Source: a virus
DNA: 25,452 bases
IMG/VR virus record: IMGVR_UViG_3300001589_000033
Location: 19,853 to 45,304 of that record
Strand: one strand, 5' to 3'
Every line of letters begins with the position of its first letter. Within the stretch, counting starts at the first letter, position 1. Below, piece after piece: positions 6,153 through 17,554 of the stretch. A model generated the notes under the pieces. The model was not told the origin of the DNA and made no database searches. It was given only the letters and a program-made list of their open reading frames with translations. The translations under genes were made by a program, and so were the position numbers.

Positions 6153-6491
6153 ATGAAACTAGATATTAAAAATATAGGCGGAAAAACTGTTAAAGAAGAT
6201 ACAAGATATGTTGTAAAAGATAATACAACATTAAAAAATCTAGTATTAAGTAGCACTCGACTACAACCAAACAAATCAACAACAGGACATAAACATCCAG
6301 GTCAAGAAGAAGTATATTATTTTATTGAAGGCAAAGGTACAATAGAACTAGCACAAAAAGATAATATTAACACTTTAAGAGTAAAGCCAGGCGATGTTGT
6401 ATTAATTGAAGATGGCGTATTTCATCGTGTACATGCAGGTGCAGACGAAATGTATTTTGTTTGTGTATTTGACGGTAAAAGGAAACACTAA
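6153..6491 (+). CDS. Cupin-domain protein
   Basis: 112 residues, starting at the base after the polymerase stop. Cupin motif 1 is TGHKHPGQEEVYYFIEG (metal ligands H46, H48 and E52 or E53). Motif 2 is PGDVVLIEDGVFHRV (H91). This is a single-domain cupin of usual length with a complete metal site. Family members include sugar isomerases or epimerases, dioxygenases and binding proteins. Its position ahead of sugar-phosphate and nucleotide-sugar genes makes a sugar-related role possible, such as an isomerase supplying the phosphomannomutase. That link is inference. It overlaps the next gene as TAATG. Confidence 0.85.
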   Translation: MKLDIKNIGGKTVKEDTRYVVKDNTTLKNLVLSSTRLQPNKSTTGHKHPGQEEVYYFIEGKGTIELAQKDNINTLRVKPGDVVLIEDGVFHRVHAGADEMYFVCVFDGKRKH

Positions 6492-6925
6492 TGAAAAAGT
6501 TATTAGAAAGATTAGATTTAGAAAAAGTAAACAGTGGGTTACACTGGACAACACTCTATAGTGAAAAGTTATTGTTAGCTATAATTGGTATGCTAACAAT
6601 GTTTGCCGCAGGTATAGACATTTATAATATGGTAATAAACTTAACAGTAAAATTAGGTGACTTGTTCCTACTATTCATTTATGCAGAAATTATTGGAATG
6701 GTTGGAGCATTTTATATTAGTAATAGAATACCGGTTACACTACCAATTATAATTGCAATGACAGCTCTTTGTAGACTTATTGTGTTACATTCAAAAGAAG
6801 CTGACCCGTGGATGCTTATTGCTGAAGCAGGTGCCATTGCAGTACTAGCCGTTGCGGCTTATTTAATGAGTATGAAAGATAAACTTAGTCTTGAGAAAAA
6901 GGAATTACGAAAGGAAAAACTATGA
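6491..6925 (+). CDS. PsiE-like four-helix membrane protein
   Basis: 144 residues. Hydrophobic segments lie at about 27-49, 57-76, 80-98 and 108-126, with charged ends on both sides. The core resembles the phosphate-starvation-inducible PsiE family by eye: an acidic residue in helix 2 (E66, in FIYAEIIG), a TALCRLIVLH segment with R95 as in E. coli PsiE TAIVRLIIVDH, and a final Ala/Leu-rich helix. PsiE is induced by phosphate starvation in E. coli, but its biochemical role is not established. A phage copy would suggest altering the host under phosphate limitation. Family assignment is by recall and should be tested by profile search. Confidence 0.6.
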   Translation: MKKLLERLDLEKVNSGLHWTTLYSEKLLLAIIGMLTMFAAGIDIYNMVINLTVKLGDLFLLFIYAEIIGMVGAFYISNRIPVTLPIIIAMTALCRLIVLHSKEADPWMLIAEAGAIAVLAVAAYLMSMKDKLSLEKKELRKEKL

Positions 6926-7326
6926 GAGTAGGATTTACATGTAGTACATTTGATTTATTACATGCAGGACATATTATAATGTTGCGTGAAGCAAAAGAAC
7001 AATGTGATTATCTTATATGCGGGTTACAAGTTGATCCTAGTCAAGACCGTAAAGATAAGAACGCACCAGTACAATCTATTGTTGAAAGATATACACAACT
7101 TAAAGCAGTTGGGTATGTAGATGAGATTATTCCGTATGGTACTGAAGAAGACTTAGTAGATATTCTAACTATGTATCCACTTGATGTACGTATCCTAGGA
7201 GAAGAATATCGTGAGAAAGACTTTACAGGTAAAAATCATTGCCAAGGAAGAAATATAGAACTATACTTTAATAAAAGAGATCACCGTTTTAGTACAAGTG
7301 ACTTAAGAAAAAGGGTGTGCGAATGA
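6922..7326 (+). CDS. Glycerol-3-phosphate cytidylyltransferase-like nucleotidyltransferase
   Basis: 134 residues, about the length of TagD (129). It has the nucleotidyltransferase signature HAGH (H14, H17), ERY at 55-57, and the C-terminal HRFSTSDLRK (121-130) matching the RTxGISTS-type substrate loop. These enzymes join CTP or ATP to a phosphorylated small molecule, giving for example CDP-glycerol or an activated heptose. Substrate cannot be set from sequence alone; TagD-like is the best fit. It overlaps both neighbours by four bases, placing it in one operon with the phosphomannomutase and nucleotide-sugar dehydrogenase. Confidence 0.8.
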   Translation: MRVGFTCSTFDLLHAGHIIMLREAKEQCDYLICGLQVDPSQDRKDKNAPVQSIVERYTQLKAVGYVDEIIPYGTEEDLVDILTMYPLDVRILGEEYREKDFTGKNHCQGRNIELYFNKRDHRFSTSDLRKRVCE

Positions 7327-7511
7327 ACTGGTTATTATTTGTAATAAGTTTTACATTAACCGAAGGAGGTTATGCTAGAGATGCAGATACAAAGATGACA
7401 TTATTTAATGAGTATAAGACTAAAACAAGTTGTGAAATTGTAAGAGATCAACTTATGGAAAACTTTACAACAGGTGAAATTGCAGTCTGTATAGAGGATA
7501 AAGATGAATAA
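7323..7511 (+). CDS. Small exported protein with N-terminal hydrophobic segment
   Basis: 62 residues from ATG 7323, which forms an ATGA overlap with the upstream stop; the GTG at 7317 is a less likely start. Residues 2-13 are hydrophobic (NWLLFVISFTLT) and followed by GGYARDA, consistent with a short signal peptide or anchor. Two Cys (37, 56) could form a disulfide in the periplasm. Function unknown. Confidence 0.6.
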   Translation: MNWLLFVISFTLTEGGYARDADTKMTLFNEYKTKTSCEIVRDQLMENFTTGEIAVCIEDKDE

Positions 7512-8208
7512 GTTTATATTTGATGTAGACGGAACACTAACACCAAGTCGTGGAAAGATAGACGAAAAGTTTGCACAGTTCTTCTTTGACTTTTGCACAC
7601 TGCATCATGTTTATCTTGTTACAGGTAGTGACAAACCTAAAACAGTTGAACAAATAGGCAACGTAATTTATGGTATGGCTAAACGTGTTTATAACTGTTC
7701 AGGTAGTGAGGTATGGAAAGGTTCCGAATTAATTAAAGTTAACGACTGGACTATACCTATGCACGTTAAATCGTGGTTACAAGATAAATTAGAAGAGAGT
7801 ACATTTCCGTTACGTACAGGGTTGCATATTGAAGAACGATCAGGTATGATAAACTTTAGTGTTGTTGGTCGTAATGCTACAATTGGTGAAAGAAAACTGT
7901 ATGTAAAGCATGATACAAAAAACAACGAACGTGATTATATTGCAGAGTTATTTAATTTAGACTTTCCAGAACTAATTGCAAGACCGGGTGGAGAAACTGG
8001 TATTGACATTAGTCCTAAAGGTTCTGATAAAAGTCAAATAGTAAATGATTTTGACCCTAATCATACATTACATTTTTACGGAGACAGAATGGATGTACAT
8101 GGTAATGATTACCCTTTGAAAAAAGTAATAATAGATAATGATTTAGGGTTTGCAGTTGAAGTACACGATTGGAAAGATACATGGACTAAACTAAAGGAAC
8201 TTGTATGA
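7504..8208 (+). CDS. Eukaryotic-type phosphomannomutase (HAD family)
   Basis: 234 residues, near the 246 of human PMM2. HAD motif I FDVDGTLTPS gives nucleophile D7 and acid/base D9. NFSVVGRNATIGER (117-130) matches the PMM substrate segment with conserved Arg123. The acidic Mg site is FYGDRMDVHGND (191-202). This eukaryotic-type PMM family, unrelated to the bacterial ManB/AlgC type, interconverts mannose-6-P and mannose-1-P, the precursor of GDP-mannose. It lies in an overlapping operon with a nucleotidyltransferase upstream and a nucleotide-sugar dehydrogenase downstream, suggesting a sugar-nucleotide pathway. No GDP-mannose pyrophosphorylase is visible in the window. Confidence 0.85.
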   Translation: MNKFIFDVDGTLTPSRGKIDEKFAQFFFDFCTLHHVYLVTGSDKPKTVEQIGNVIYGMAKRVYNCSGSEVWKGSELIKVNDWTIPMHVKSWLQDKLEESTFPLRTGLHIEERSGMINFSVVGRNATIGERKLYVKHDTKNNERDYIAELFNLDFPELIARPGGETGIDISPKGSDKSQIVNDFDPNHTLHFYGDRMDVHGNDYPLKKVIIDNDLGFAVEVHDWKDTWTKLKELV

Positions 8209-8984
8209 GAATACTAGTAGTAGGTTATGGATTTGTAGGTTATGCTTTTGATAAAGCAGTTAATACAACAAATGAAGTTAGTATAAGTGATCCTGCAAAA
8301 GGTCACTTATATGATTATCATGATGAAATACATCCCCAGGGAATTGTAGTATGTGTGTCAACGCCTCAAAACGAAGATGGTTCGTGTAATATTGATAATG
8401 TATACCAAGTAATTGAGAAAGCACCAAACGTACCTATTTTAATTAAAAGTACTATTAGTTTAGAAGGTTGGGAATTTCTAAAAAAATCTTTTCCTAATAA
8501 AAGCATGTGCTTTAATCCAGAATTTTTAAGAGCAAAAACAGCAGTTGAAGATTTCGAGAATATGGCATATACTATAATTGCAGGCGAACAGGAAGACACA
8601 AAATTTTGGAATACCTGGTTCAAAAAACAAGTATGTTGGTCAGACTTAAGAATTTATAACTGTCCTGTTCCTGAAGCAATTACTCTTAAGTATGCAGAAA
8701 ATAGTTTTCTTGCCCTTAAGGTAAGTTTTTTTAATCAAATATACGACTTTTGTAAACTAACAAATCAAGACTTTGAAACTGTACGTGACTTACTATGCTT
8801 AGACAAACGGATAGGTGATGATCATAGTATGGTTACAGAAGAAAGAGGTTGGGGAGGACATTGTTTTCCTAAGGATACATCTGCTTTCCTAAAAACAGCA
8901 GAGAAATATGGTTATGATCTAAATATACTTAGAATAGCAGTAGATTATAATAAACAGATAAGAAAAACTGTTGACAATCAATAG
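8205..8984 (+). CDS. Shortened UDP-glucose/GDP-mannose dehydrogenase family protein
   Basis: 259 residues. The N-terminal Rossmann fold has GYGFVG (7-12), then STPQNEDGS, KSTI and FNPEFLRAKTAVEDF. The central domain carries K162 and N166 in LKYAENSFLA and catalytic Cys220 in GWGGHCFPKD. All catalytic residues are present, but it ends about 40 residues after the Cys. Usual family members are near 390-450 residues and have a C-terminal nucleotide-sugar-binding domain that is absent here. The enzyme oxidises a nucleotide sugar to its uronic acid with NAD; the substrate is open. The stop is followed by the clamp gene promoter, not by a broken remnant, so this looks like a settled short form. It overlaps the phosphomannomutase gene by four bases. 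Confidence 0.85.
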   Translation: MRILVVGYGFVGYAFDKAVNTTNEVSISDPAKGHLYDYHDEIHPQGIVVCVSTPQNEDGSCNIDNVYQVIEKAPNVPILIKSTISLEGWEFLKKSFPNKSMCFNPEFLRAKTAVEDFENMAYTIIAGEQEDTKFWNTWFKKQVCWSDLRIYNCPVPEAITLKYAENSFLALKVSFFNQIYDFCKLTNQDFETVRDLLCLDKRIGDDHSMVTEERGWGGHCFPKDTSAFLKTAEKYGYDLNILRIAVDYNKQIRKTVDNQ

Positions 8985-8999: not shown

Positions 9000-9020
9000 A
9001 AACAGAGAATGGAGATATAC

Positions 9021-9749
9021 ATGAAAGATATATTACAAGACGTGGTAGCACATACACATGCACTAGGCTTTCTTAGCCTAGTTAAGGTAACAAACGATAG
9101 TAGCACAACTGTTGAGTCTATGGCTGAAGACAGAAGTGTTATTTTAGGTGCAACTACACATACACCAGTTGGTGAATTTGAAGGCACATTTGGTATGCCT
9201 AACTTAGATAAACTTGCATTGCATTTAAAGAACCCCGAGTATCAAAAAGATGCAAAACTTGATGTAGTTAAAGCAGAACGTAACGGCGAAACTATTCCTA
9301 CACACATTCACTTTGAAAATGCGGCAGGTGACTTTCAGAATGATTATCGCTTTATGAACAAAGCAATTATTGAAGAGAAACTAAAAACTGTTAAGTTTAA
9401 AGGCGCAAGTTGGAATGTTACATTTCAACCTAGCATGGCAAGTATTCAACGTATGAAGCTACAAAGTGCGGCACATAGTGAAGAGCCTACATTTAATGTA
9501 AAAACTGTAGACGACAACTTAGTGTTTAGCTTTGGTGATGCAAGTACACACGCAGGTGAGTTTGTATTCCAGCATGCAGTTGGTGGTACACTTACACATA
9601 CTTGGAGTTGGCCAGTAGCACAAGTACAAAGTATCTTAAACTTAGATGGCGATGCAACTATGAGCATTAGTGATCAAGGCGCTATGCAGATTAGTGTAGA
9701 TAGCGGCATGGCAAAATACGATTACATTTTACCAGCACAGAGCAAATAA
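9021..9749 (+). CDS. 45: Sliding clamp, gp45-like
   Basis: 242 residues (T4 gp45 has 228). Start 9021 is chosen because GGAG lies six bases upstream and the transcript begins near 9006; the in-frame ATG at 9009 overlaps that ribosome site. Features that suggest a clamp are the alternating beta-strand and short-helix pattern, FGMPNLDKLALHL near residue 60 where gp45 has its FGxxDL segment, acidic character, and a C-terminal strand ISVDSGMAKYDYILPA. The clamp rings DNA and tethers gp43; in T4 it also activates late transcription. Neighbours (polymerase upstream, own strong promoter) fit. No single catalytic motif can prove this, so confidence is moderate. Confidence 0.65.
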   Translation: MKDILQDVVAHTHALGFLSLVKVTNDSSTTVESMAEDRSVILGATTHTPVGEFEGTFGMPNLDKLALHLKNPEYQKDAKLDVVKAERNGETIPTHIHFENAAGDFQNDYRFMNKAIIEEKLKTVKFKGASWNVTFQPSMASIQRMKLQSAAHSEEPTFNVKTVDDNLVFSFGDASTHAGEFVFQHAVGGTLTHTWSWPVAQVQSILNLDGDATMSISDQGAMQISVDSGMAKYDYILPAQSK

Positions 9750-11318
9750 ATGAATAAAGACTTAACAACAGCACAGAACGACTACGCACACTTTTTGCCA
9801 GCATTGAGCGGCTTTTATGCGACATACATAGGCAAGCAACGTTTTCCTGATCCTGTTAAAGGTCTTTATGTTGACACTGCTAGAATGCCTAGTAATTTTA
9901 GTAATGGAATGGAAAGTCTTAACTATCTTAATAAGCAACAAGGACAGTTTACTTATAAATGGTGTTTATACTCTGCAGGACATGCAGAGTTAGATATTAA
10001 TAAACATAGTCCTAAAGAAGATATGGTACGTAATCGCGATAGAGAAAATACTTGGCTACTTGGCGATAGTGGTGGTTTCCAAATTGGTAAAGGTGTTTGG
10101 GAAGGCGATTGGAAAGATCCTAATTGTCCTAAAGCACAAAAGAAACGTGATGGTGTTCTACGTTGGATGGATGCATACATGGATTATGGAATGATACTTG
10201 ATATTCCAGCCTGGGTTGCACGTTCGCCAGCAGGTCAAAAAGCAACAGGTATTAGTACATATCAAGAAGCTGTTAATGCTACACGTATTAACAACGACTA
10301 CTGGATGAAACACAGAACAGGTGCCTGTAAGTTCTTAAATGTATTACAAGGCGAGAATCATGCTGACGCTGAAGATTGGTATCAGCAGATGAAAGACTAT
10401 TGTGATCCAACTAAGTATCCAGACAACCATTTTAATGGGTGGTCAATGGGTGGTCAGAACATGTGTGATGTGCATTTGGTTCTTAAACGTCTAGTTGCAT
10501 TGAGGTTTGACGGACTACTGGAGCAGGGCATACATGACGTTATGCACTTCTTAGGTACAAGTAAGCTAGAATGGGCTACGTTACTAACTGATATACAACG
10601 TGCAGTACGTAAGTATCATAATCCAAACTTTATGGTTACATTTGATTGTGCTAGTCCTTTCTTAGCAACTGCTAACGGACAAATTTATTGCGAGCTAGAA
10701 ACACAATCCCAATCAAAGTGGGTCTATCGAATGGTTCCTAGTATTGACGATAAAGCACTAGCAACTGATACTACGCCTTTTGCACAAGCATTTGTACGTG
10801 AAGGAAAACATACTAGCTTTAAAGACTCTCCTGTAACAGATGGACTAGAAGCAAAAGACATTTGTCATTATGGTCCTGGAATGTTAAACAAGATAGGCAA
10901 AGAAGGCAAAACTAGCTGGGATAGCTTTAGTTATGCTATACAGATGGGTCATAACGTATGGAGTCATATTAATGCTGTACAAGAAGCTAATAGACAGTAT
11001 GACGCAGGCGTTAATCCTAAGATGTTAGTAAGAGAACGTGATGGTTTAAAGTTTAAAGATATTGTAGAAGCAGTCTTTATGGCAGACAACCGTGATGATG
11101 CAAATGCAATACTTGATGCATATTCTAAATTCTTTGATACTATTATTGGAACTAGAGGCAATACCGGAAAACGTATTGTAAATGCAGAAACACAGTTTCA
11201 AAATCATTACGAAACAGTAGATATTGAATCTATGGTTAGTGACGAAGATATGCAGGTATGGGAAAGAACTAAAGAACAATATAAACCTGTAATGGACAAT
11301 AGCCTTTGGGAGATATAG
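9750..11318 (+). CDS. tRNA-guanine-transglycosylase-like enzyme, DpdA-type candidate
   Basis: 522 residues, beginning one base after the clamp stop. TGT-family marks appear in order: LLGDSGGFQIG (D106, matching the DSGGxQ base-binding Asp), D151 in ILDIPAW, Q200-G201 in NVLQGE, GWSMGGQ (230-236, matching the GGLAVGE loop), HFLGTSK, and TFDCASPF with D299 as the covalent nucleophile. The CxCxxC zinc site of tRNA TGTs is not seen, and the protein is longer than bacterial Tgt (about 375). DpdA enzymes are TGT relatives that exchange guanine in DNA for 7-deazaguanines in phages and Dpd islands. With QueE at 16655, DNA rather than tRNA modification is the best guess. Confidence 0.75.
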   Translation: MNKDLTTAQNDYAHFLPALSGFYATYIGKQRFPDPVKGLYVDTARMPSNFSNGMESLNYLNKQQGQFTYKWCLYSAGHAELDINKHSPKEDMVRNRDRENTWLLGDSGGFQIGKGVWEGDWKDPNCPKAQKKRDGVLRWMDAYMDYGMILDIPAWVARSPAGQKATGISTYQEAVNATRINNDYWMKHRTGACKFLNVLQGENHADAEDWYQQMKDYCDPTKYPDNHFNGWSMGGQNMCDVHLVLKRLVALRFDGLLEQGIHDVMHFLGTSKLEWATLLTDIQRAVRKYHNPNFMVTFDCASPFLATANGQIYCELETQSQSKWVYRMVPSIDDKALATDTTPFAQAFVREGKHTSFKDSPVTDGLEAKDICHYGPGMLNKIGKEGKTSWDSFSYAIQMGHNVWSHINAVQEANRQYDAGVNPKMLVRERDGLKFKDIVEAVFMADNRDDANAILDAYSKFFDTIIGTRGNTGKRIVNAETQFQNHYETVDIESMVSDEDMQVWERTKEQYKPVMDNSLWEI

Positions 11319-11319
11319 T

Positions 11320-11535
11320 ATGGGTAACTATAGCGATGCACACGATAAAATTGTTGTACACTTACAAGAATTATATAAGAAGCATAGAACACTAGATCAC
11401 GAAGTAGCAGACTTAGGAAAAGCATTTAATTCGGATCGAGAAATTCGAGTTTTAAAGACTAAAAAACTTTGGTACAAGGACGAAATCAACAGATTAGAAA
11501 ACGAACTGAAGATGTTAGGAAATGGTAACTTATGA
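11320..11535 (+). CDS. DUF465/YdcH-like small coiled-coil protein
   Basis: 71 residues. It matches the DUF465 pattern: KKHRTLDHEVADL, then a basic REIRVLKTKKLWYKDEI helix and NRLENEL. These are short two-helix proteins common in Proteobacteria, with no settled function. A phage copy may come from a proteobacterial host, which is mild evidence on host range. The start lies one base after the TGT-like stop, with GGGAG upstream, and the end overlaps the next gene (ATGA). Confidence 0.7.
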   Translation: MGNYSDAHDKIVVHLQELYKKHRTLDHEVADLGKAFNSDREIRVLKTKKLWYKDEINRLENELKMLGNGNL

Positions 11536-12050
11536 AAAGAGATTATGAAAATGGTGTAAGTGATACACCAATGTTCTTTACAGGAATAGAAGTTGAAAAA
11601 ACTCCTGCATACGGAATGAAAACATTATTTGTAACAGGATTGCAAGACCCAAAAGAAATTGAAAAGTTTTATAAAAAAGAACACTGCGAACATATCTTCT
11701 TTGGTGCTAATCATAGTTTTGCACCAACTGAAAATCCTGAATGGGATGAATGGGAATTTATGATTAGGTATTTTCTAAAAAAAGATACGTTGTGTAGTTT
11801 AGATATTCCAATTCAATATGCAGAAGAGTTCCTCGAAGGTGGCCTTACAGAATATGAAAACTTTATTCCACAACTACGTATTCCTTTGCCTTATATAAAA
11901 CAGTGGAATTATAACACTATGATTAAAATTGATGACAAAGATTTTAAAGCGACTAATCCAGGTGTTTGGTGTCATAGTTTGCACGATTTGATGGACAGAA
12001 AAAAGTTCACAGATTGGACAAAATATGGCCTTGACAAAGTAATTAAATGA
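11532..12050 (+). CDS. Conserved phage protein of unknown function
   Basis: 172 residues. Notable segments are HIFFGANHSFAPTENPEW (54-71), LCSLDIPIQYAEEF (87-100), LPYIKQWNYNTMIKIDDKDF (119-138) and GVWCHSLHDLM (144-154). I recall close counterparts in marine T4-like phages, always unnamed. Conserved aromatic, Asp and His residues suggest a folded globular protein, possibly an enzyme or core-replication partner, but no known motif is seen. The sigma70-type promoter for the next gene lies within its last codons. Confidence 0.7.
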   Translation: MKRDYENGVSDTPMFFTGIEVEKTPAYGMKTLFVTGLQDPKEIEKFYKKEHCEHIFFGANHSFAPTENPEWDEWEFMIRYFLKKDTLCSLDIPIQYAEEFLEGGLTEYENFIPQLRIPLPYIKQWNYNTMIKIDDKDFKATNPGVWCHSLHDLMDRKKFTDWTKYGLDKVIK

Positions 12051-12059
12051 AAGTATAAT
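12031..12059 (+). promoter_or_regulatory. Consensus sigma70-type promoter with start at the next ATG
   Basis: TTGACA (12031-12036), 17-base spacer, TATAAT (12054-12059). The expected transcription start, six to eight bases after the -10, coincides with ATG 12066. The -35 lies inside the upstream coding region. Confidence 0.8.
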
Positions 12060-12065
12060 AGTACT

Positions 12066-12536
12066 ATGTTAGAAGATTCAAATACACAACAACACGAACC
12101 TTATTATGAATATATGGGTCGTAGAATGAGAGAAGAGGATGCAAAAATGAAAGCAGATGAAGCAAGTAGAAGTATTTGGGTAACCTTTAGAAAAGAAGGA
12201 GTTCACTTATACCCTGGAGCAGATAAAGATCCTAAACTGGCAACAGGTGATTGGGATGATGTATCATTTCTAGGTATTGCTCATCGACATATTTTCCATT
12301 TTAAAGTACGTATTCAAGTATTTCATAATGATCGTGATATCGAGTTTATACAATTTAAAAGATGGATGGAAAGGTTATATGCACAAGATGTAATACAACT
12401 AGATCATAAGAGCTGTGAAATGATTGCAGATGACTTATATAAAGAAATCAATACAAAGTACCCAGGCCGCTTTGTAGAGATTGACGTTGCCGAAGATGGC
12501 GAAAACGGCTGTTCAATTTATTATCCCGCAACTTAG
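12066..12536 (+). CDS. Conserved phage protein, possible T-fold (QueD-like) domain
   Basis: 156 residues from ATG 12066. An internal ATG at 12147 (M28) has GAGG eight bases upstream and may be the true start, because the promoter would start transcription at about 12066. From residue 36 the protein resembles a family I recall in marine T4-like phages. AHRHIFHFKVRIQVFHNDRD (72-91), QLDHKSCEMIADDLY (111-125) and VEIDVAEDGENGCSIYY (137-153) echo, in order, the His strand, the LDH helix and the Et..a.y strand of QueD/PTPS T-fold enzymes. The exact zinc His spacing is not kept, so this is a hypothesis only. Confidence 0.65.
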   Translation: MLEDSNTQQHEPYYEYMGRRMREEDAKMKADEASRSIWVTFRKEGVHLYPGADKDPKLATGDWDDVSFLGIAHRHIFHFKVRIQVFHNDRDIEFIQFKRWMERLYAQDVIQLDHKSCEMIADDLYKEINTKYPGRFVEIDVAEDGENGCSIYYPAT

Positions 12537-12555
12537 CTATTAAAAGGAAACAAAA

Positions 12556-12753
12556 ATGGCTATTCAATTTAATCGTAATGCTTACAATCGAGTATTTAAT
12601 GACTTGGATAAATTACGCGACTACTGTCGCTTTGAAGGAAAGGTCTTTAATGAGAAAGATCTTTATAAAGAAGATGCACCTGTTTGGATTGCATATAACA
12701 AATACCAAGGATGGTTACGTGCTAAAGCCCGTAAAAATTTAAGGAAGAACTAA
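12556..12753 (+). CDS. Small conserved phage protein
   Basis: 65 residues with AAAAGGAAA eight bases before ATG. Basic and helical, with aromatic residues (AYNKYQGWLRAKARKN) and a KDLYKEDAPVW segment that I recall in small proteins of other marine T4-like phages. No function known. It ends in a TAATG overlap with the glycosyltransferase. Confidence 0.65.
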   Translation: MAIQFNRNAYNRVFNDLDKLRDYCRFEGKVFNEKDLYKEDAPVWIAYNKYQGWLRAKARKNLRKN

Positions 12754-13811
12754 TGACTATATACATTGTAGATATCGAAGCAGTTGATACACGCTATACC
12801 AAGCAATGGAAAGAACACCTTCCTAAGCAACTTCAACGGTCTACAAATGAAGATGTAGAAGTTGTTAGTGGCGGAGAAACTCCTCAGGCTACAACGCCTG
12901 GGGCATTTCTTAACTTTGGTGGTACCAATGTTTACAAAAGTAAGCAACTTGAAAAGATAGGAGTTATGTTTTGTAATGGAGTCATTGAGGATGGTGATTA
13001 TTTTCTCTATACCGATGCCTGGAATCCTACAGTTATTCAATTACGGTATATGGCAGAACTATTGGGTGTTGATATTACTATTGGTGGTCTCTGGCATGCA
13101 GGTAGCTATGATCCGCAGGATTTTTTAGGTAGACTCATAGGCGATAAGCCTTGGGTAAGACATGCTGAAATGTCAATGTTTGAATGTTATGATGATAACT
13201 TCTTTGCAAGTGACTTTCATATTGATATGTTTACAGACGTATTTGACGAAGACTATGCAATAGACTGGGACAAAATAAATCGTGTAGGTTGGCCTATGGA
13301 ATATTTAAAGGGTAGTTTACAACAGTATCAAGGCATGGAAAAACGTGACATTATACTTTTTCCACATAGAGTTGCACCTGAAAAACAAGTAGATATTTTT
13401 CATGATCTTAGATCTTCTCTTCCACAGTATGAATTTATTGTTTGTCAAGAGAAAATGCTTACAAAAAATGAATATCATAATTTACTAGGCGAAGCTAAGA
13501 TGGTGTTTAGTGCTAACTTGCAAGAAACACTTGGCATTAGCTGGTACGAAGGTGCATTAGTTGATGCTATACCTATGGTTCCAGATAGACTAAGCTACAG
13601 TGAAATGGCATTGCCTGAATTTAAATATCCAAGCGAATGGACGACATCTTACAAAGCATACTCTCAAAATAAAAATAATGTTGTAAATCAGATTATAGAA
13701 TATATGGAAAACTATAATGACTACTTGCCTGCAATACGTAAACAAGTAAATACACTTAACAAAGAATTCTTTAGTGGCGAAAAACTTTACAGGACTATAT
13801 CAAATGAGTAA
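12753..13811 (+). CDS. GT-B-fold glycosyltransferase-like protein
   Basis: 352 residues. The C-terminal half has the donor-binding layout of GT4-type enzymes: ILFPHRVAPEKQVDIF (201-216, with basic R206 and K211), then QEKMLTKNEYHNLLGEAKMVF, then the E-x7-E motif in QETLGISWYEGALVDAIPMVP (E258, E266). The N-terminal half is a less clear acceptor domain with DGDYFLYTDAWNP. T4-like phages use glycosyltransferases to sugar-coat modified DNA bases; others glycosylate virion or host glycans. Neighbouring nucleotide-sugar genes 4 kb upstream could supply a donor. Acceptor is unknown. It overlaps the next gene by eight bases. Confidence 0.7.
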   Translation: MTIYIVDIEAVDTRYTKQWKEHLPKQLQRSTNEDVEVVSGGETPQATTPGAFLNFGGTNVYKSKQLEKIGVMFCNGVIEDGDYFLYTDAWNPTVIQLRYMAELLGVDITIGGLWHAGSYDPQDFLGRLIGDKPWVRHAEMSMFECYDDNFFASDFHIDMFTDVFDEDYAIDWDKINRVGWPMEYLKGSLQQYQGMEKRDIILFPHRVAPEKQVDIFHDLRSSLPQYEFIVCQEKMLTKNEYHNLLGEAKMVFSANLQETLGISWYEGALVDAIPMVPDRLSYSEMALPEFKYPSEWTTSYKAYSQNKNNVVNQIIEYMENYNDYLPAIRKQVNTLNKEFFSGEKLYRTISNE

Positions 13812-14151
13812 TGACGACTATACTATTACTATAAGTTCTACTCCATCTACAGGTGGACTAACATATTCTACACCTACTTATGACTTTAGTAATTTAATTG
13901 ATAATCAGGACGATGTAATTACAATTGACACTTCAGCATATAATCCGGGAGCAACTGTACACGGAAGTTGTATTCATGATGTTACATTTACATCATCTAA
14001 TACACTTAAACATGCTGATGATGTAGTATATTATATTGATCAAATTGAAGAAATGTGCAAAGATTATCCTGCGTTAGATAAGGCGTATGAAAATTTTAGA
14101 ACAATATATAAAATGGTATTCCAAGACTGGAAGGGAAAACAAAATGATTAA
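13804..14151 (+). CDS. Small conserved phage protein
   Basis: 115 residues from ATG 13804, chosen over ATG 13774 because AGGA lies about nine bases upstream and the overlap with the glycosyltransferase shrinks to eight bases. The N-terminal half is Ser/Thr/Asp rich with repeated short beta-like stretches. The C-terminal part (ALDKAYENFRTIYKMVFQDWK) is one helix. No known domain recognised. Confidence 0.6.
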   Translation: MSNDDYTITISSTPSTGGLTYSTPTYDFSNLIDNQDDVITIDTSAYNPGATVHGSCIHDVTFTSSNTLKHADDVVYYIDQIEEMCKDYPALDKAYENFRTIYKMVFQDWKGKQND

Positions 14152-14650
14152 AAAACATTACTATAGTTGGAATGATGTAGAATCAATGTGTACTAGTATT
14201 GTACTACAGATGTATGCTGATAATTTCCGACCTGATTACATCGTAGGTATTACCCGAGGAGGTAATGTGCCTGCTACGATTATTAGTAATATGACTAGCA
14301 TACGTTGCGAAGCAATTAAAGTAAGTTTACGTGATGATACTAGTGAAAGCGAAAGCAATTTGTGGATGGGCGAAGATGCATATCACGGCAAGAATATTTT
14401 AATTGTCGACGATATCAACGATACTGGTGCTACATTTAATTGGATTATGAAAGACTGGCAATCAGGATGTATGCCAAACGACGACAAATGGCAAAGTGTA
14501 TGGAACAATAATGTTCGCTTTGCTACACTAACAGATAATTTAGCAAGTGAATTTACAGAGCATTGTGCTTACACTTGTCACGAAGTTAACAAATCTGAGG
14601 AAGACGTCTGGTTAGTTTATCCTTGGGAAAGTGTAGGCATATATGGATAA
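14144..14650 (+). CDS. Phosphoribosyltransferase
   Basis: 168 residues from ATG 14144, which has AAGGGA upstream; the longer frame from 14087 lies mostly inside the previous gene. The PRPP-binding motif is ILIVDDINDTGATF (85-98), and YIVGITRGGNVPA (32-44) matches the PPi-loop region of purine-type phosphoribosyltransferases such as Gpt. It salvages a free base onto PRPP, or acts on a related nucleobase. Given the 7-deazaguanine genes in the window, a role with a modified base is possible but unsupported by specific residues. It overlaps both neighbours by eight bases. Confidence 0.8.
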   Translation: MIKKHYYSWNDVESMCTSIVLQMYADNFRPDYIVGITRGGNVPATIISNMTSIRCEAIKVSLRDDTSESESNLWMGEDAYHGKNILIVDDINDTGATFNWIMKDWQSGCMPNDDKWQSVWNNNVRFATLTDNLASEFTEHCAYTCHEVNKSEEDVWLVYPWESVGIYG

Positions 14651-15254
14651 TATTGATAGAATGGATCTTTTTCCAGTTCCTATTTTTGGTGCTGAGTTTG
14701 AAAAAGGTGAAGAGTTAAGAAAAACTATTATGCCAATACTACGAAGTATTGAAGATGAAGATGAAAACCCTCATATTTATAGTGCAAAAGGGTATACAAA
14801 TTATAATCCAGAACAACAAATTATTAATCGCCCAGAGCTAGAAGATTTATGTAATTTTATCTTTGATGTTGGGTTTGAAGCAAACAATACTATAGGACTT
14901 AATAACGGACTAATGTTTACCGGTAGCTGGTTTAGTATTAATAGATTATATAGCACACATCTTCCACATAATCATATTCCTAGTACATGGAGTGGTGTTT
15001 ATTATGTACAAGCTGACGAGAATGATGGTGTATTAAGTTTTATTGATAAAAATAAAGAATGTAATTGGCCTTGGGCTAATAACATACAAACTAATGCATA
15101 TTCAACTACGCAATTTAGTATTAAACCAAAGACAGGAAGGTTAATTATATTTCCTGCATACTTACAACATATGGTTGGTGAGCAAAAGCAAGATACTGAA
15201 AGAGTAACTATTAGTTTTAATCTTTCAATAACAGCGGAACAAGCAAATGAATAA
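14643..15254 (+). CDS. 2OG-Fe(II) oxygenase (2OG-FeII_Oxy_5 type)
   Basis: 203 residues. It begins with LFPVPIFGAEF, the usual opening of this phage-rich subfamily. The core has WFSINRLYSTHLPHNHIPSTWSGVYYV reading across 96-122, with H109 and H111 as metal ligands, then GRLIIFPAYLQHMV (H176) and R187 in ERVTISFN. These oxygenases are common in cyanophages and pelagiphages; the substrate is not established. It overlaps the phosphoribosyltransferase by eight bases and the HIT gene by eight. Confidence 0.85.
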   Translation: MDNIDRMDLFPVPIFGAEFEKGEELRKTIMPILRSIEDEDENPHIYSAKGYTNYNPEQQIINRPELEDLCNFIFDVGFEANNTIGLNNGLMFTGSWFSINRLYSTHLPHNHIPSTWSGVYYVQADENDGVLSFIDKNKECNWPWANNIQTNAYSTTQFSIKPKTGRLIIFPAYLQHMVGEQKQDTERVTISFNLSITAEQANE

Positions 15255-15597
15255 ACCTTGGACCGATGTATTAATTGATACAAAAGAATTTACAGTTTAC
15301 AAAGACAAGTATCCTGTAACAGAAGGACATGTTCTTTTTGTGCCTAAAGTAGAAGACTGGAAGCACTTAACAGCATGCTTCGAAGCCGCATATAAATGGG
15401 GCTACGATTGGGTTGAACGCGATTATTGTCAAGCGTTTAATATTGGACAGAATGTAGGCACAGCCGCAGGACAAACGGTTGATTACCCCCACGTCCATTT
15501 AATACCCCGAAGGAACGGGGATATGCAAGACCCAAGAGGAGGAGTGCGACATGTTATTCCTAGTAAGGGCAATTATAGAAAGGAAGAACAAGGATGA
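15247..15597 (+). CDS. HIT-family nucleotide hydrolase
   Basis: 116 residues, the usual HIT length. It shows GHVLFVPK (27-34), FNIGQNVGTAAGQTV (64-78) and YPHVHLIPRRNGD (80-92). Catalytic His82 and His84 are present; the first His of the HxHxHxx motif is replaced by Tyr80, a variation I believe occurs in some bacterial HIT proteins. Family members cleave NMP from dinucleotides such as Ap4A or from NMP-amidates. Role in the phage may be nucleotide or alarmone clean-up. It overlaps the next gene by four bases. Confidence 0.85.
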   Translation: MNKPWTDVLIDTKEFTVYKDKYPVTEGHVLFVPKVEDWKHLTACFEAAYKWGYDWVERDYCQAFNIGQNVGTAAGQTVDYPHVHLIPRRNGDMQDPRGGVRHVIPSKGNYRKEEQG

Positions 15598-15803
15598 AAG
15601 TCGGAGAAATGATGATTAATGCGGCTAAGAAACAAGCAGAAGGCGAAGTTGCAGTTCATTTAGCAAACATTGAAGTTTATAAAACTATGCCAGCAGGTAT
15701 TGGTGAACACTCAGATGTTACTGAAGCAGTGATAGCAGAACTTGATAAATTAGCGGCGGCAGACGACAGACTTGACATGATTGAAAAATACTTTAATGGC
15801 TAG
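15594..15803 (+). CDS. Small conserved phage protein
   Basis: 69 residues, ATGA-overlapped with the HIT gene and preceded by AAGGA. All-helical and acidic, with GIGEHSDVTEAVIAELDKLAAADDRLDMIEKYF making a long amphipathic stretch. I recall near counterparts in marine T4-like phages. Function unknown. Confidence 0.7.
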   Translation: MKVGEMMINAAKKQAEGEVAVHLANIEVYKTMPAGIGEHSDVTEAVIAELDKLAAADDRLDMIEKYFNG

Positions 15804-16617
15804 AACACTATTCTTAGGTGATAGTCATACATGTGGATACGATACTCTACCAGGGCAAATAGGCCCTGGTAGTTTTAGTGTATGGCAAGATAACAACTAT
15901 GCAGAGCTATATGCAAAAGAACATAATAAAAATGTTATAGTATATGCAATGCCAGGTAGTAACAATAGAGCATACTCGGACTGGTTAGGAAGTATGTTTA
16001 AGAAGTACGACGATATCGACGAAGTATTTGTACTTCTAAGTAGCATGAATAGATTCATGTTAGCACACAATGATAAGCTATTATCTGATACTGTTCCAAT
16101 AGATCAATTTACAACCTTTGAGGGACAATCTGAAGATTGTCTTAGTGATAGGTATATAGATGCAACTACTGTAGGTGATTACTTTCAACTATATCAAAAA
16201 CCAATAGCAGAAGATTATGATAAGTTTCCTGGTATTGATTTTAACTATCAGGATGGACTAGTAAAGCCTAACATACGAGAAGCTTCGTATATGCAGATTA
16301 AAACATTTTTTGAATTGAATACACACTTAGAGCAACGTGATTTTTTTAAAGATGTATACACATGGGATAATATGTGTGCGGATAGAAATATCCCAATATA
16401 TCTTTTTCAAATGCGAGAAAGACTAAAATTTCCAAAAGAGCTAGACTTTTACGGAAAGTTAAAGGCTACAACAATAGCAAAAACTAGCATAGAAGAATAC
16501 TTTAGGAAAAAGAACCTTAATCCTGACAAGTATCATACAGACGATAAAGAACATTATAATCAACAATTTCACCATTTAATAGCTACAAAATTTTTAAAAT
16601 ACTTGACAAAGACCTAA
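15796..16617 (+). CDS. SGNH/GDSL-family hydrolase-like protein
   Basis: 273 residues from ATG 15796; the TTG at 15781 was rejected. No clear ribosome site is visible, so translation is probably coupled to the overlapping upstream gene. Block I is FLGDSHTCG (nucleophile S10). AMPGSNNRAYSD (52-63) holds the block II Gly and an Asn. LLSSMNRF has N85. DDKEHYNQQ places D249/D250 and H253 as block V. It has the full catalytic set, unlike the shorter SGNH protein at 2836. Likely an esterase or deacetylase of unknown substrate. A perfect 10-bp hairpin followed by TTTT lies within its first 80 bases. Confidence 0.75.
   Translation: MARTLFLGDSHTCGYDTLPGQIGPGSFSVWQDNNYAELYAKEHNKNVIVYAMPGSNNRAYSDWLGSMFKKYDDIDEVFVLLSSMNRFMLAHNDKLLSDTVPIDQFTTFEGQSEDCLSDRYIDATTVGDYFQLYQKPIAEDYDKFPGIDFNYQDGLVKPNIREASYMQIKTFFELNTHLEQRDFFKDVYTWDNMCADRNIPIYLFQMRERLKFPKELDFYGKLKATTIAKTSIEEYFRKKNLNPDKYHTDDKEHYNQQFHHLIATKFLKYLTKT
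15847..15876 (+). terminator. Terminator-like hairpin inside the SGNH coding region
   Basis: CTACCAGGGC (15847-15856) pairs perfectly with GCCCTGGTAG (15863-15872) around a 6-base loop, followed by TTTT (15873-15876). It looks like an intrinsic terminator but lies inside an open reading frame, so it may attenuate rather than end transcription. Confidence 0.45.
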
Positions 16618-16631
16618 ATATAGTATATAAT
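16603..16631 (+). promoter_or_regulatory. Consensus sigma70-type promoter for queE
   Basis: TTGACA (16603-16608), 17-base spacer containing ACCTAAATA, TATAAT (16626-16631). The leader is about 17 bases, with TTGGAG before ATG 16655. It overlaps the end of the SGNH gene. Confidence 0.85.
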
Positions 16632-16654
16632 AAAGCTATACATTTGGAGTTGTA

Positions 16655-17554
16655 ATGAAAGAAGAAAAGAAATACTACTATAGTGAGATATTTCACAGTA
16701 TACAAGGTGAAGGACATTATACAGGTGTACCTACTGCTTGGATACGATTCTTTCTATGCAATTTACAATGCAATGGATTTGGACAACTGTTTCCTACTAA
16801 ACCTGATACATATGAATTACCGTTTGAAGACTTTGATGTATCCAGTGTAAGCAGAGTAGAAGATTTACCAGTTTGGGATAAAGGTTGCGATAGTAGTTAT
16901 ACTTGGGCTAAAAAGTTTAAAAGTCTAATGGGGCAAGAAACTCCAACAGTACTAGCAAATAAGATTGTTGATATTATGAAAAATGAAAGCAACCCAGAAG
17001 GATTGTTTTTACATCCAGTAAGTAAGCAACAACAACATTTGTGTATTACAGGTGGCGAACCTCTTATGGTGACAGGGCAAATGGCTACTATAGGAATACA
17101 CAACGAACTAGTAAAACAGAATAATGTACCGAGTAGTATGACGTTTGAAACTAACGGAACACAACGATTACGTCCTGAGTTTATGGAGTGGGGTACTAAT
17201 ACTGATACAGAATTATTTTTTAGTGTTAGTCCTAAGTTATGGACGGTTGCAGGTGAAAAAACAGAAAAAGCAATTAAACCTGAGATAGTAGCAGACTACT
17301 ATAAAGTTAGTAAAACTGGGCAACTAAAATTTGTTGTAGGACACTTAGATGAACAATGGGAAGAAATGGAAACTGTAATTACACAGTTTAGAGAAGCAGG
17401 AGTTGACTATCCTGTTTGGGTTATGCCAGTTGGAGCAAGATCAGAAGAACAAGAAGAAAGTGCAGGAGCAGTAGCAGAAAGAGCATTTAAACGTGGTTAT
17501 AATGTAGCGGCTCGTGTACATGTTTACTTGTTTGGTAACGCAATAGGAACTTAA
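16655..17554 (+). CDS. queE: QueE-type 7-carboxy-7-deazaguanine synthase (radical SAM) with split Cys motif
   Basis: 299 residues. SEIFHSIQGEGHYTGVPTAW (10-29) is the QueE opening. The cluster Cys are unusual: C35 and C39 in FLCNLQC, then the third, C78 in KGCDSSYTW, after a 38-residue insertion where standard QueE has CxxC. CITGGEPLM (GGEP 133-136) and the later TFETNGT strand bind SAM and substrate. QueE converts 6-carboxy-tetrahydropterin to 7-carboxy-7-deazaguanine, the core step to preQ0. No queC, queD or folE is certain in the window. Own promoter with no upstream overlap suggests a separate transcription unit. With the TGT-like gene it implies 7-deazaguanine supply for nucleic-acid modification. 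Confidence 0.85.
   Translation: MKEEKKYYYSEIFHSIQGEGHYTGVPTAWIRFFLCNLQCNGFGQLFPTKPDTYELPFEDFDVSSVSRVEDLPVWDKGCDSSYTWAKKFKSLMGQETPTVLANKIVDIMKNESNPEGLFLHPVSKQQQHLCITGGEPLMVTGQMATIGIHNELVKQNNVPSSMTFETNGTQRLRPEFMEWGTNTDTELFFSVSPKLWTVAGEKTEKAIKPEIVADYYKVSKTGQLKFVVGHLDEQWEEMETVITQFREAGVDYPVWVMPVGARSEEQEESAGAVAERAFKRGYNVAARVHVYLFGNAIGT

Follow-up and report, generated by a model that had tools for sequence, protein, structure and literature searches.

The locus described here raises the question of which nucleic acid is modified, and with which base, when a virus carries a gene for a tRNA-guanine transglycosylase (TGT)-like protein about 5 kb upstream of queE, the gene for 7-carboxy-7-deazaguanine (CDG) synthase. 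The two genes lie in a stretch of 25,452 nucleotides, hereafter called the window, which covers bases 19853-45304 of the 45,304-base virus record IMGVR_UViG_3300001589_000033; the record may be a fragment. A preliminary description of the window had read this pair as a candidate system for 7-deazaguanine modification of DNA. Our analysis makes it fairly probable that the window holds a DNA 7-deazaguanine module in which the base is probably glycosylated. Three genes that were absent from the preliminary description, encoding a predicted glycosyltransferase, a small conserved protein and a phosphoribosyltransferase, change the probable final base.

The TGT-like protein and its place in the superfamily

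Both open reading frames of the preliminary description are present (Table 1), with 5337 bases between them, and the TGT residues that it had pointed out, D106-S-G-G-F-Q111 and D299, are found in the sequence. It had also claimed the absence of the CxCxxC zinc site; the sequence has no such motif, and the profile alignment with Tgt gave no cysteine partners. An alignment of 71 rows, with relatives down to 23% identity with the window protein, has 13 columns that are invariant in 71/71 rows (L73, G77, D106, S107, G108, G109, Q111, D151, W210, G230, H266, L268 and D299), and F110 varies. Because these columns are invariant across such diverged relatives, the motif match is not due to chance. Profile-profile alignment with the canonical Tgt placed D106 on the aspartate of DSGGFQ and D299 on the aspartate of FDCVxP.

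The protein had zero matches in Pfam, PHROGs, NCBIfam and the PDB sequences; PF01702 in particular gave no Pfam match up to an E value of 5, and the profile of the family found no match among the PDB sequences. The AlphaFold2 model built from the 71 rows reached a pLDDT of 91.3 and a pTM of 0.87. The top solved structures found with it by Foldseek were TGTs (QTRT1, 2.3e-6), and VIA-align gave Z 19.8 with the Thermotoga Tgt (301 residues, 4.2 A) and Z 19.1 with the Zymomonas and archaeal TGT. Judged from this model, with its barrel fold, catalytic aspartates and DSGG(F)Q, the 522-residue protein is a member of the TGT superfamily. It resembles the canonical bacterial Tgt in fold (Z 19-20), in DSGGFQ and in the catalytic aspartates, but differs from it in having no zinc cysteines, in being invisible to PF01702 and in forming its own clade.

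In a tree of 43 rows, where the family was represented by 21 of the 71 alignment rows and three named phages, the family (24 rows), Tgt (8) and DpdA2 (11) each formed one group, with support of 99/97, 100/99 and 100/100, respectively; the branching order of the three is unsure because of long branches. Placement inside the bacterial Tgt clade, a possibility raised in the preliminary description, was looked at with this tree, and the protein falls outside that clade. A canonical tRNA Tgt identity is thus ruled out by the separate clade and the absent zinc motif. Membership of DpdA2 was also considered; the family and DpdA2 are separate groups with remote similarity only. In the comparison with the DpdA and Tgt families proposed in the same description, hhalign placed the family nearest to DpdA2 (98%, E 1.3e-13) and next to the canonical Tgt (94%, 1.5e-7). 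Against a shallow profile of 6 sequences, no similarity to the DpdA of Enterobacteria phage 9g was detected (0.3%).

Like the 9g DpdA, the window protein would be a base-exchange enzyme, and the 9g gene adjoins folE, queD, queE and gat-queC. On the other hand, the 9g protein has 317 amino acids, and no glycosyltransferase of the type found here is among its annotated neighbours. A 2023 study by Cui is said to have described phage DNA with 7-carboxy-7-deazaguanine or 7-deazaguanine and the further subfamilies DpdA3 and DpdA4. The present family, a clade apart from Tgt and DpdA2 in the tree, could overlap DpdA3 or DpdA4. The TGT-like gp52 of Cellulophaga phage phi47:1, which we had taken to be a possible DpdA3 comparator, grouped instead with the 9g DpdA set.

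A tblastn search of 50,697 phage records found the TGT-like protein in 13, where one phage under two accessions counts as two records. Eleven of the records belong to PA5oct-like Pseudomonas phages (36%), one is Sinorhizobium phage Phosso (27%) and one is Vibrio phage 2.275.O (33%). Cultured phages with the family are PA5oct/Paride, Phosso and Vibrio phage 2.275.O. Two viral-contig scans gave at least 599 and at least 591 relatives and a genome-contig scan gave 44, and tblastn in plasmids found the gene in one Azospirillum plasmid; viral-contig scans with the Paride and Vibrio 2.275.O proteins gave no result.

The predicted glycosyltransferase, the precursor genes and the other companions

Partners were counted in 154 viral loci, a non-random sample made of the best 80 from each of the two viral-contig scans (158 loci minus the repeat contigs L125, L131, L133 and L144, with other near-identical contigs kept). 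The 67 loci with at least 9 kb downstream are the basis of the counts given as x/67. A partner was scored anywhere in the fetched locus at E <=1e-5 with profiles partly grown from the same loci, and queE and yhhQ were counted by phmmer at 1e-6.

No family name was obtained from Pfam, PHROGs or NCBIfam for the 352-residue product. Its AlphaFold2 model (51 rows, pLDDT 93.5) aligned with sucrose-phosphate synthase at Z 25.9 (318 residues, 3.1 A), BshA at 24.9 and MshA at 24.8, and Foldseek gave a GT4-type GT-B match at 6.4e-10. E258-x7-E266, R206 and K211 are invariant in 51/51 rows; EX7E with a conserved arginine and lysine is the donor-site signature of GT4 enzymes. The Pfam family Glycos_transf_1 has no match in the window protein and scores 15-21 bits in its relatives against a cut-off of 26.4, and the relative in Xanthomonas phage X1 lies above it with 45.5 bits. 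On its modelled fold, the product is predicted to be a GT4-type glycosyltransferase. The gene is present in 66/67 viral loci, and a single-sequence query from the window found it in 75 of the 80 covered loci.

The same kind of query found the small protein in 84/85 covered loci, and in Paride its homologue adjoins the glycosyltransferase. Comparison of the small protein with QueD by hhalign gave 9% across 44 columns, and weak cross-matches (E 0.017 to 0.05) appeared when a small set was searched; PF01242 gave no match, and a PDB search with its profile gave no result. On this sequence likeness it is possibly a diverged QueD/T-fold protein and is kept as a candidate.

The window QueE matched PHROG 2076 ('QueE-like') at 5.9e-54 and the PDB 7-carboxy-7-deazaguanine synthase 6nhl at 3.6e-5; the matches to the NCBIfam QueE models were partial and below cut-off, the best with 43.6 bits against 260.1 required. 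Its cysteines are C35 and C39, followed by an insert and then C78. The preliminary description had found no queC, queD or folE with certainty, and we agree, as the record has no match to PF01242 (QueD), PF06508 (QueC) or PF01227 (FolE). Within its 45,304 bases, which may be a fragment, there is also no match to PF02592 (YhhQ) or PF14489 (QueF).

The relatives are richer in precursor genes. Among 23 records, namely the window's own, 19 long contigs, Vibrio phage 2.275.O, Paride and Phosso, folE is present in 20, missing from the window's record and two other contigs; queD is present in five, a VUT/YhhQ transporter in four and QueF in one. QueC was matched at E <=0.001 in 6/23 records, over the cut-off in Vibrio 2.275.O (1.7e-51) and in G013 (a pair of short pieces); the remaining four matches are partial and weak. 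In the viral loci, folE is found in 60/67, queE in 56/67, queD in 7/67 and yhhQ in 4/67. For Paride and Phosso, both of which were deposited as complete genomes, FolE and QueD are matched and QueE is annotated, but QueC has no match. This suggests CDG as the base, unless host QueC continues the pathway. CDG has already been considered as a possible DNA base of a QueC-less phage (PMC6884629, seen in part).

QueE has been exchanged within the family. We compared it across the 39 loci in which the TGT-like protein shares 74% identity or more with that of the window. Identity to the window QueE is 70% or higher in 6 of these loci and less than 45% in 33, with none between; the two types are about 75-81% or 30-39% identical to the window QueE, and the TGT-like proteins there are 76-93% identical. 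In one locus (L053), the TGT-like protein is 93% identical and QueE only 34%. In part of the family, QueE was thus replaced by a distant homologue. The swapped gene has stayed downstream of the TGT-like gene, at a distance of 5 to 9 kb, a further sign that QueE is needed.

The phosphoribosyltransferase matched PDB purine phosphoribosyltransferase 4z1o at 2.8e-10 and hypoxanthine-guanine phosphoribosyltransferase at 1.8e-9; its NCBIfam xanthine phosphoribosyltransferase score of 50.5 bits is under the cut-off of 138. In Acidovorax phage ACP17, a homologue of the 172-residue conserved protein (8.1e-19) immediately precedes DpdA2.

Table 1. Genes of the proposed module and their positions in the window
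Feature	Position	Strand	Details
TGT-like base-exchange enzyme (predicted), new TGT-superfamily clade	9750..11318	+	522 amino acids; AlphaFold2 fold, invariant residues, tree
Conserved protein	11532..12050	+	172 amino acids; 61/67 viral loci; no Pfam or NCBIfam match
Small conserved protein, H.....HRH-like pattern	12066..12536	+	66/67 viral loci; glycosyltransferase companion
Predicted GT-B glycosyltransferase, GT4 type	12753..13811	+	352 amino acids; AlphaFold2 fold, EX7E
Purine (guanine/xanthine-type) phosphoribosyltransferase	14087..14650	+	PF00156 47.9 bits; 57/67 viral loci
Phage-type QueE, 7-carboxy-7-deazaguanine synthase	16655..17554	+	299 amino acids; PHROG 2076 and PDB match

Some further genes were seen around these. 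Directly 5' of the TGT-like gene, window positions 9009-9749 encode a 246-residue protein that is present in 133/133 covered loci and belongs to PHROG 12062 (function unknown), with no Pfam match. Window positions 6153-8984 hold cupin, cytidylyltransferase-like, phosphomannomutase-like and UDP-glucose/GDP-mannose dehydrogenase genes, suggesting sugar-nucleotide metabolism; they occur in 18/100, 44/113, 33/124 and 9/131 covered loci and are therefore not tied to the module. Diverged PP-loop, QueC-like open reading frames were read by eye in three of the family's contigs (L246:877-1485, L249:121-861 and L250:95-835), and in the last two of these contigs the following frame carries CxxxCxxC, a radical-S-adenosylmethionine-like motif also read by eye.

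Recurrence of the gene set in other genomic settings

Much of the viral association reflects shared descent of related phages, which weighs against our reading. Since shared descent accounts for part of the association, other genomic settings matter. Three phages provide such settings. ACP17 has in a single gene run QueD, FolE, the homologue of the 172-residue protein, DpdA2, the glycosyltransferase, the small protein and QueE; DpdA2, the glycosyltransferase and the small protein score 296, 319 and 178 bits, respectively. X1 has FolE, the glycosyltransferase, DpdA2, the small protein and QueE, with 187 bits for the glycosyltransferase, 261 for DpdA2 and 142 for the small protein. In Phosso, the small protein and the glycosyltransferase, scoring 216 and 457 bits, form a cluster with folE and queE at 150-156 kb; the TGT-like gene is found 170 kb away, at 323 kb. 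The phosphoribosyltransferase was not found in these parts of ACP17, X1 and Phosso, where the other partners lie.

The window protein thus resembles the DpdA2 of ACP17 and X1 in having two companions in common, the glycosyltransferase and the small protein. It also resembles the DpdA2 of phage nt-1, as both are TGT-superfamily transglycosylases without CxCxxC in phages with FolE, QueD and QueE. It differs from the nt-1 enzyme in its separate clade and in the lack of QueC in Paride and Phosso. As a side observation on the DpdA2 phages, Stenotrophomonas phage Mendera (L261:7950-13476) carries FolE, myo-inositol-1-phosphate synthase, QueC, DpdA2 (annotated hypothetical) and QueE in a row.

The glycosyltransferase was also found in 12 of the 44 genome-contig loci. 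Five of them (L172-L175 and L186) are phage-like because they carry the window-type phage DNA polymerase. The other seven (L178, L188, L189, L190, L194, L196 and L200) are alphaproteobacterial by title, and in 7/7 the TGT-like gene and the glycosyltransferase stand side by side with a gene for a Vut_1-like transporter. The Vut_1-like proteins score 24.7-29.0 bits with Pfam, only that of L178 above the cut-off of 27.2. YhhQ, which belongs to the Vut_1 family, has been described as transporting preQ0 (PMC5372724, seen in part). The small protein was present in 3/4 searched bacterial genomes with the glycosyltransferase at the TGT-like locus; the match in G021 is by construction, because the query alignment contains the L188 protein, and those in G022 and G023 are not. 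It was present in none of five genomes (G024-G028) whose TGT-like locus has no glycosyltransferase within 10-kb flanks. A tblastn search with the bacterial glycosyltransferase in plasmids gave no result.

Two further features of the bacterial loci were recorded. Some of the seven alphaproteobacterial loci, L178 for one, have a phage-integrase-family gene, so these loci may be mobile. In bacterial loci, proteins of about 580 amino acids with no Pfam match lie near the TGT-like gene (L200:11186-12943 and L205:8269-9999), and their clusters occur in 16/42 and 10/42 loci.

Proposed pathway and competing explanations

We propose that CDG would be made by the phage QueE together with FolE and QueD, which may come from the host or the phage; in most relatives the phage itself encodes folE. 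The TGT-like enzyme would remove guanine from the phage DNA and attach CDG or a derived base to the deoxyribose. D299 would act as the nucleophile and D106 as the general acid/base, and the phosphoribosyltransferase may recycle the guanine freed by the exchange. The GT4 enzyme would then put a sugar on the deazaguanine, either as free base or within DNA, and the small protein could be a helper or tailoring enzyme of this sugar step. The modified product would hide the phage DNA from restriction enzymes.

Several observations weigh against this reading. One of the 67 viral loci (L094) has no glycosyltransferase, and it is also the sole one without the small protein; Vibrio phage 2.275.O likewise has the TGT-like gene without these partners. 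Four Xanthomonas/Erwinia phages encode a relative (25%) of the glycosyltransferase; in Xanthomonas phage PhiXhv-16, the only one of the four examined, no module-type genes adjoin it. In the stretches read, the DpdA2 phages nt-1 and Mendera show neither the glycosyltransferase nor the small protein, which for nt-1 is a further difference from the window. Within reach of the TGT-like gene, queE is absent in 11/67 loci and folE in 7/67. The base may also be preQ0, because QueC is available from Pseudomonas and other hosts. In the bacteria, six of the seven Vut_1-like proteins score under the Pfam cut-off. The QueD match is missing in 3/4 searched bacterial genomes and no queE was found near the elements, so the bacterial base may be a different one and may be taken up by import.

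The gaps in the glycosyltransferase association lend themselves to an explanation in which the DNA carries a plain 7-deazaguanine (dCDG, dPreQ0 or a decarboxylated deazaguanine) and the glycosyltransferase is a mere neighbour acting on a phage protein or a host surface glycan. The 7-deazaguanines reported in phage DNA are all unglycosylated in the portions seen of PMC6884629, and Vibrio 2.275.O, L094 and PhiXhv-16 fit a glycosyltransferase that is independent of the base. A mere neighbour, however, would hardly accompany two transglycosylase clades together with the small protein, stand with folE and queE alone in Phosso, and lie beside the TGT-like gene in bacterial loci as well. We consider the plain base unlikely, though with an appreciable chance.

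Vibrio phage 2.275.O deserves a remark of its own. Its locus (L002:11905-21290) encodes, in order, the TGT-like protein, an Amidoligase_2-like protein, QueF, a YhhQ-type transporter, QueC, a glutamine-amidotransferase-like protein, FolE and QueE; the Amidoligase_2-like gene, next after the TGT-like gene, scores 21.9 bits, just under the cut-off of 22.0. This gene set perhaps represents a different tailoring of the base.

The glycosylated DNA base that we favour requires DNA as the target. The DNA target of the preliminary description gains support from the position outside the Tgt clade, the absent zinc motif, the precursor genes (folE in 20/23 and queD in 5/23 records) and the companions common with DpdA2. 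In addition, a PF01702 search found one separate canonical Tgt (>500 bits) in 9/9 bacterial genomes carrying a TGT-like relative, and no match in six phage records. The argument from nearness to replication genes did not hold, as such proximity is weak evidence and was rejected as proof. Hutinet 2019 measured dG+, dPreQ0 and dADG in the DNA of the DpdA2 phage nt-1 (PMC6884629, seen in part). We infer DNA as the target because of the companions common with DpdA2 and the separate canonical Tgt.

The enzyme might instead act on RNA, on phage or host tRNA, so that the module alters translation in infection. Its fold is that of the tRNA enzymes, and the queuosine of animal tRNA can be glycosylated, which counts for this explanation. 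The Ps15 authors took the Stenotrophomonas phage enzyme for a tRNA enzyme (PMC9025141, seen in part). An RNA substrate nevertheless agrees poorly with a clade outside Tgt that has no zinc motif, with bacterial carriers that own a canonical Tgt besides, and with companions common with DpdA2, which is tied to DNA, and we regard it as improbable.

It is also conceivable that QueE and the TGT-like gene are unrelated, that QueE boosts host queuosine or disturbs the host, and that their proximity is chance. A role as division regulator has been reported for E. coli QueE (PMC11142719, seen in part), and most of the 173 phage records with queE do not have this TGT-like gene, which occurs in only 13 records. 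Yet the two QueE types across 39 loci are kept at the same place and folE stands beside the TGT-like gene in 60/67 loci, which makes chance proximity very improbable. Equally hard to credit is a route in which the phosphoribosyltransferase, which sits between the glycosyltransferase and queE and is found in 57/67 loci, makes a deazaguanine nucleotide that is reduced and polymerised into DNA, with the TGT-like enzyme only editing; tubercidin synthesis does join a 7-deazapurine to ribose (PMC6112128, seen in part), but ACP17, X1 and Phosso lack the gene in the stretches with the other partners, and guanine recycling is a simpler account of it.

The glycosylated 7-deazaguanine module proposed here has a parallel in the T4-type phages, which glucosylate hydroxymethylcytosine in DNA: in both, a modified base would be followed by a phage glycosyltransferase. 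Unlike in the T4-type system, the proposed acceptor is a 7-deazaguanine, and the enzyme is nearest to the GT4 folds of BshA, MshA and sucrose-phosphate synthase. Both 7-deazaguanine DNA and glycosylated pyrimidine DNA are already known, and the predicted combination with a glycosyltransferase would be new; we know of no described precedent for a glycosylated purine-type DNA hypermodification. A search of titles and abstract openings in one open-licence library found no publication joining a glycosyltransferase to a DpdA-type system, and the portions seen of the Callisto, MIJ3 and Paride papers make no mention of 7-deazaguanine in phage DNA.

More tentatively, and with somewhat less confidence than for the window itself, we suggest that in phages and some mobile-looking alphaproteobacterial loci the guanine of DNA may be replaced by a glycosylated 7-deazaguanine via two interchangeable transglycosylase clades, a dedicated GT4 enzyme and a small partner. 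Several genes of PA5oct/Paride that are annotated as hypothetical become testable enzymes. If the proposal is true, it would add a new kind of DNA base and a further transglycosylase clade, and the module would be a probable counter-defence system that is widespread (at least 591 related stretches among the viral contigs) and that is also carried by cultured phages growing on laboratory hosts.

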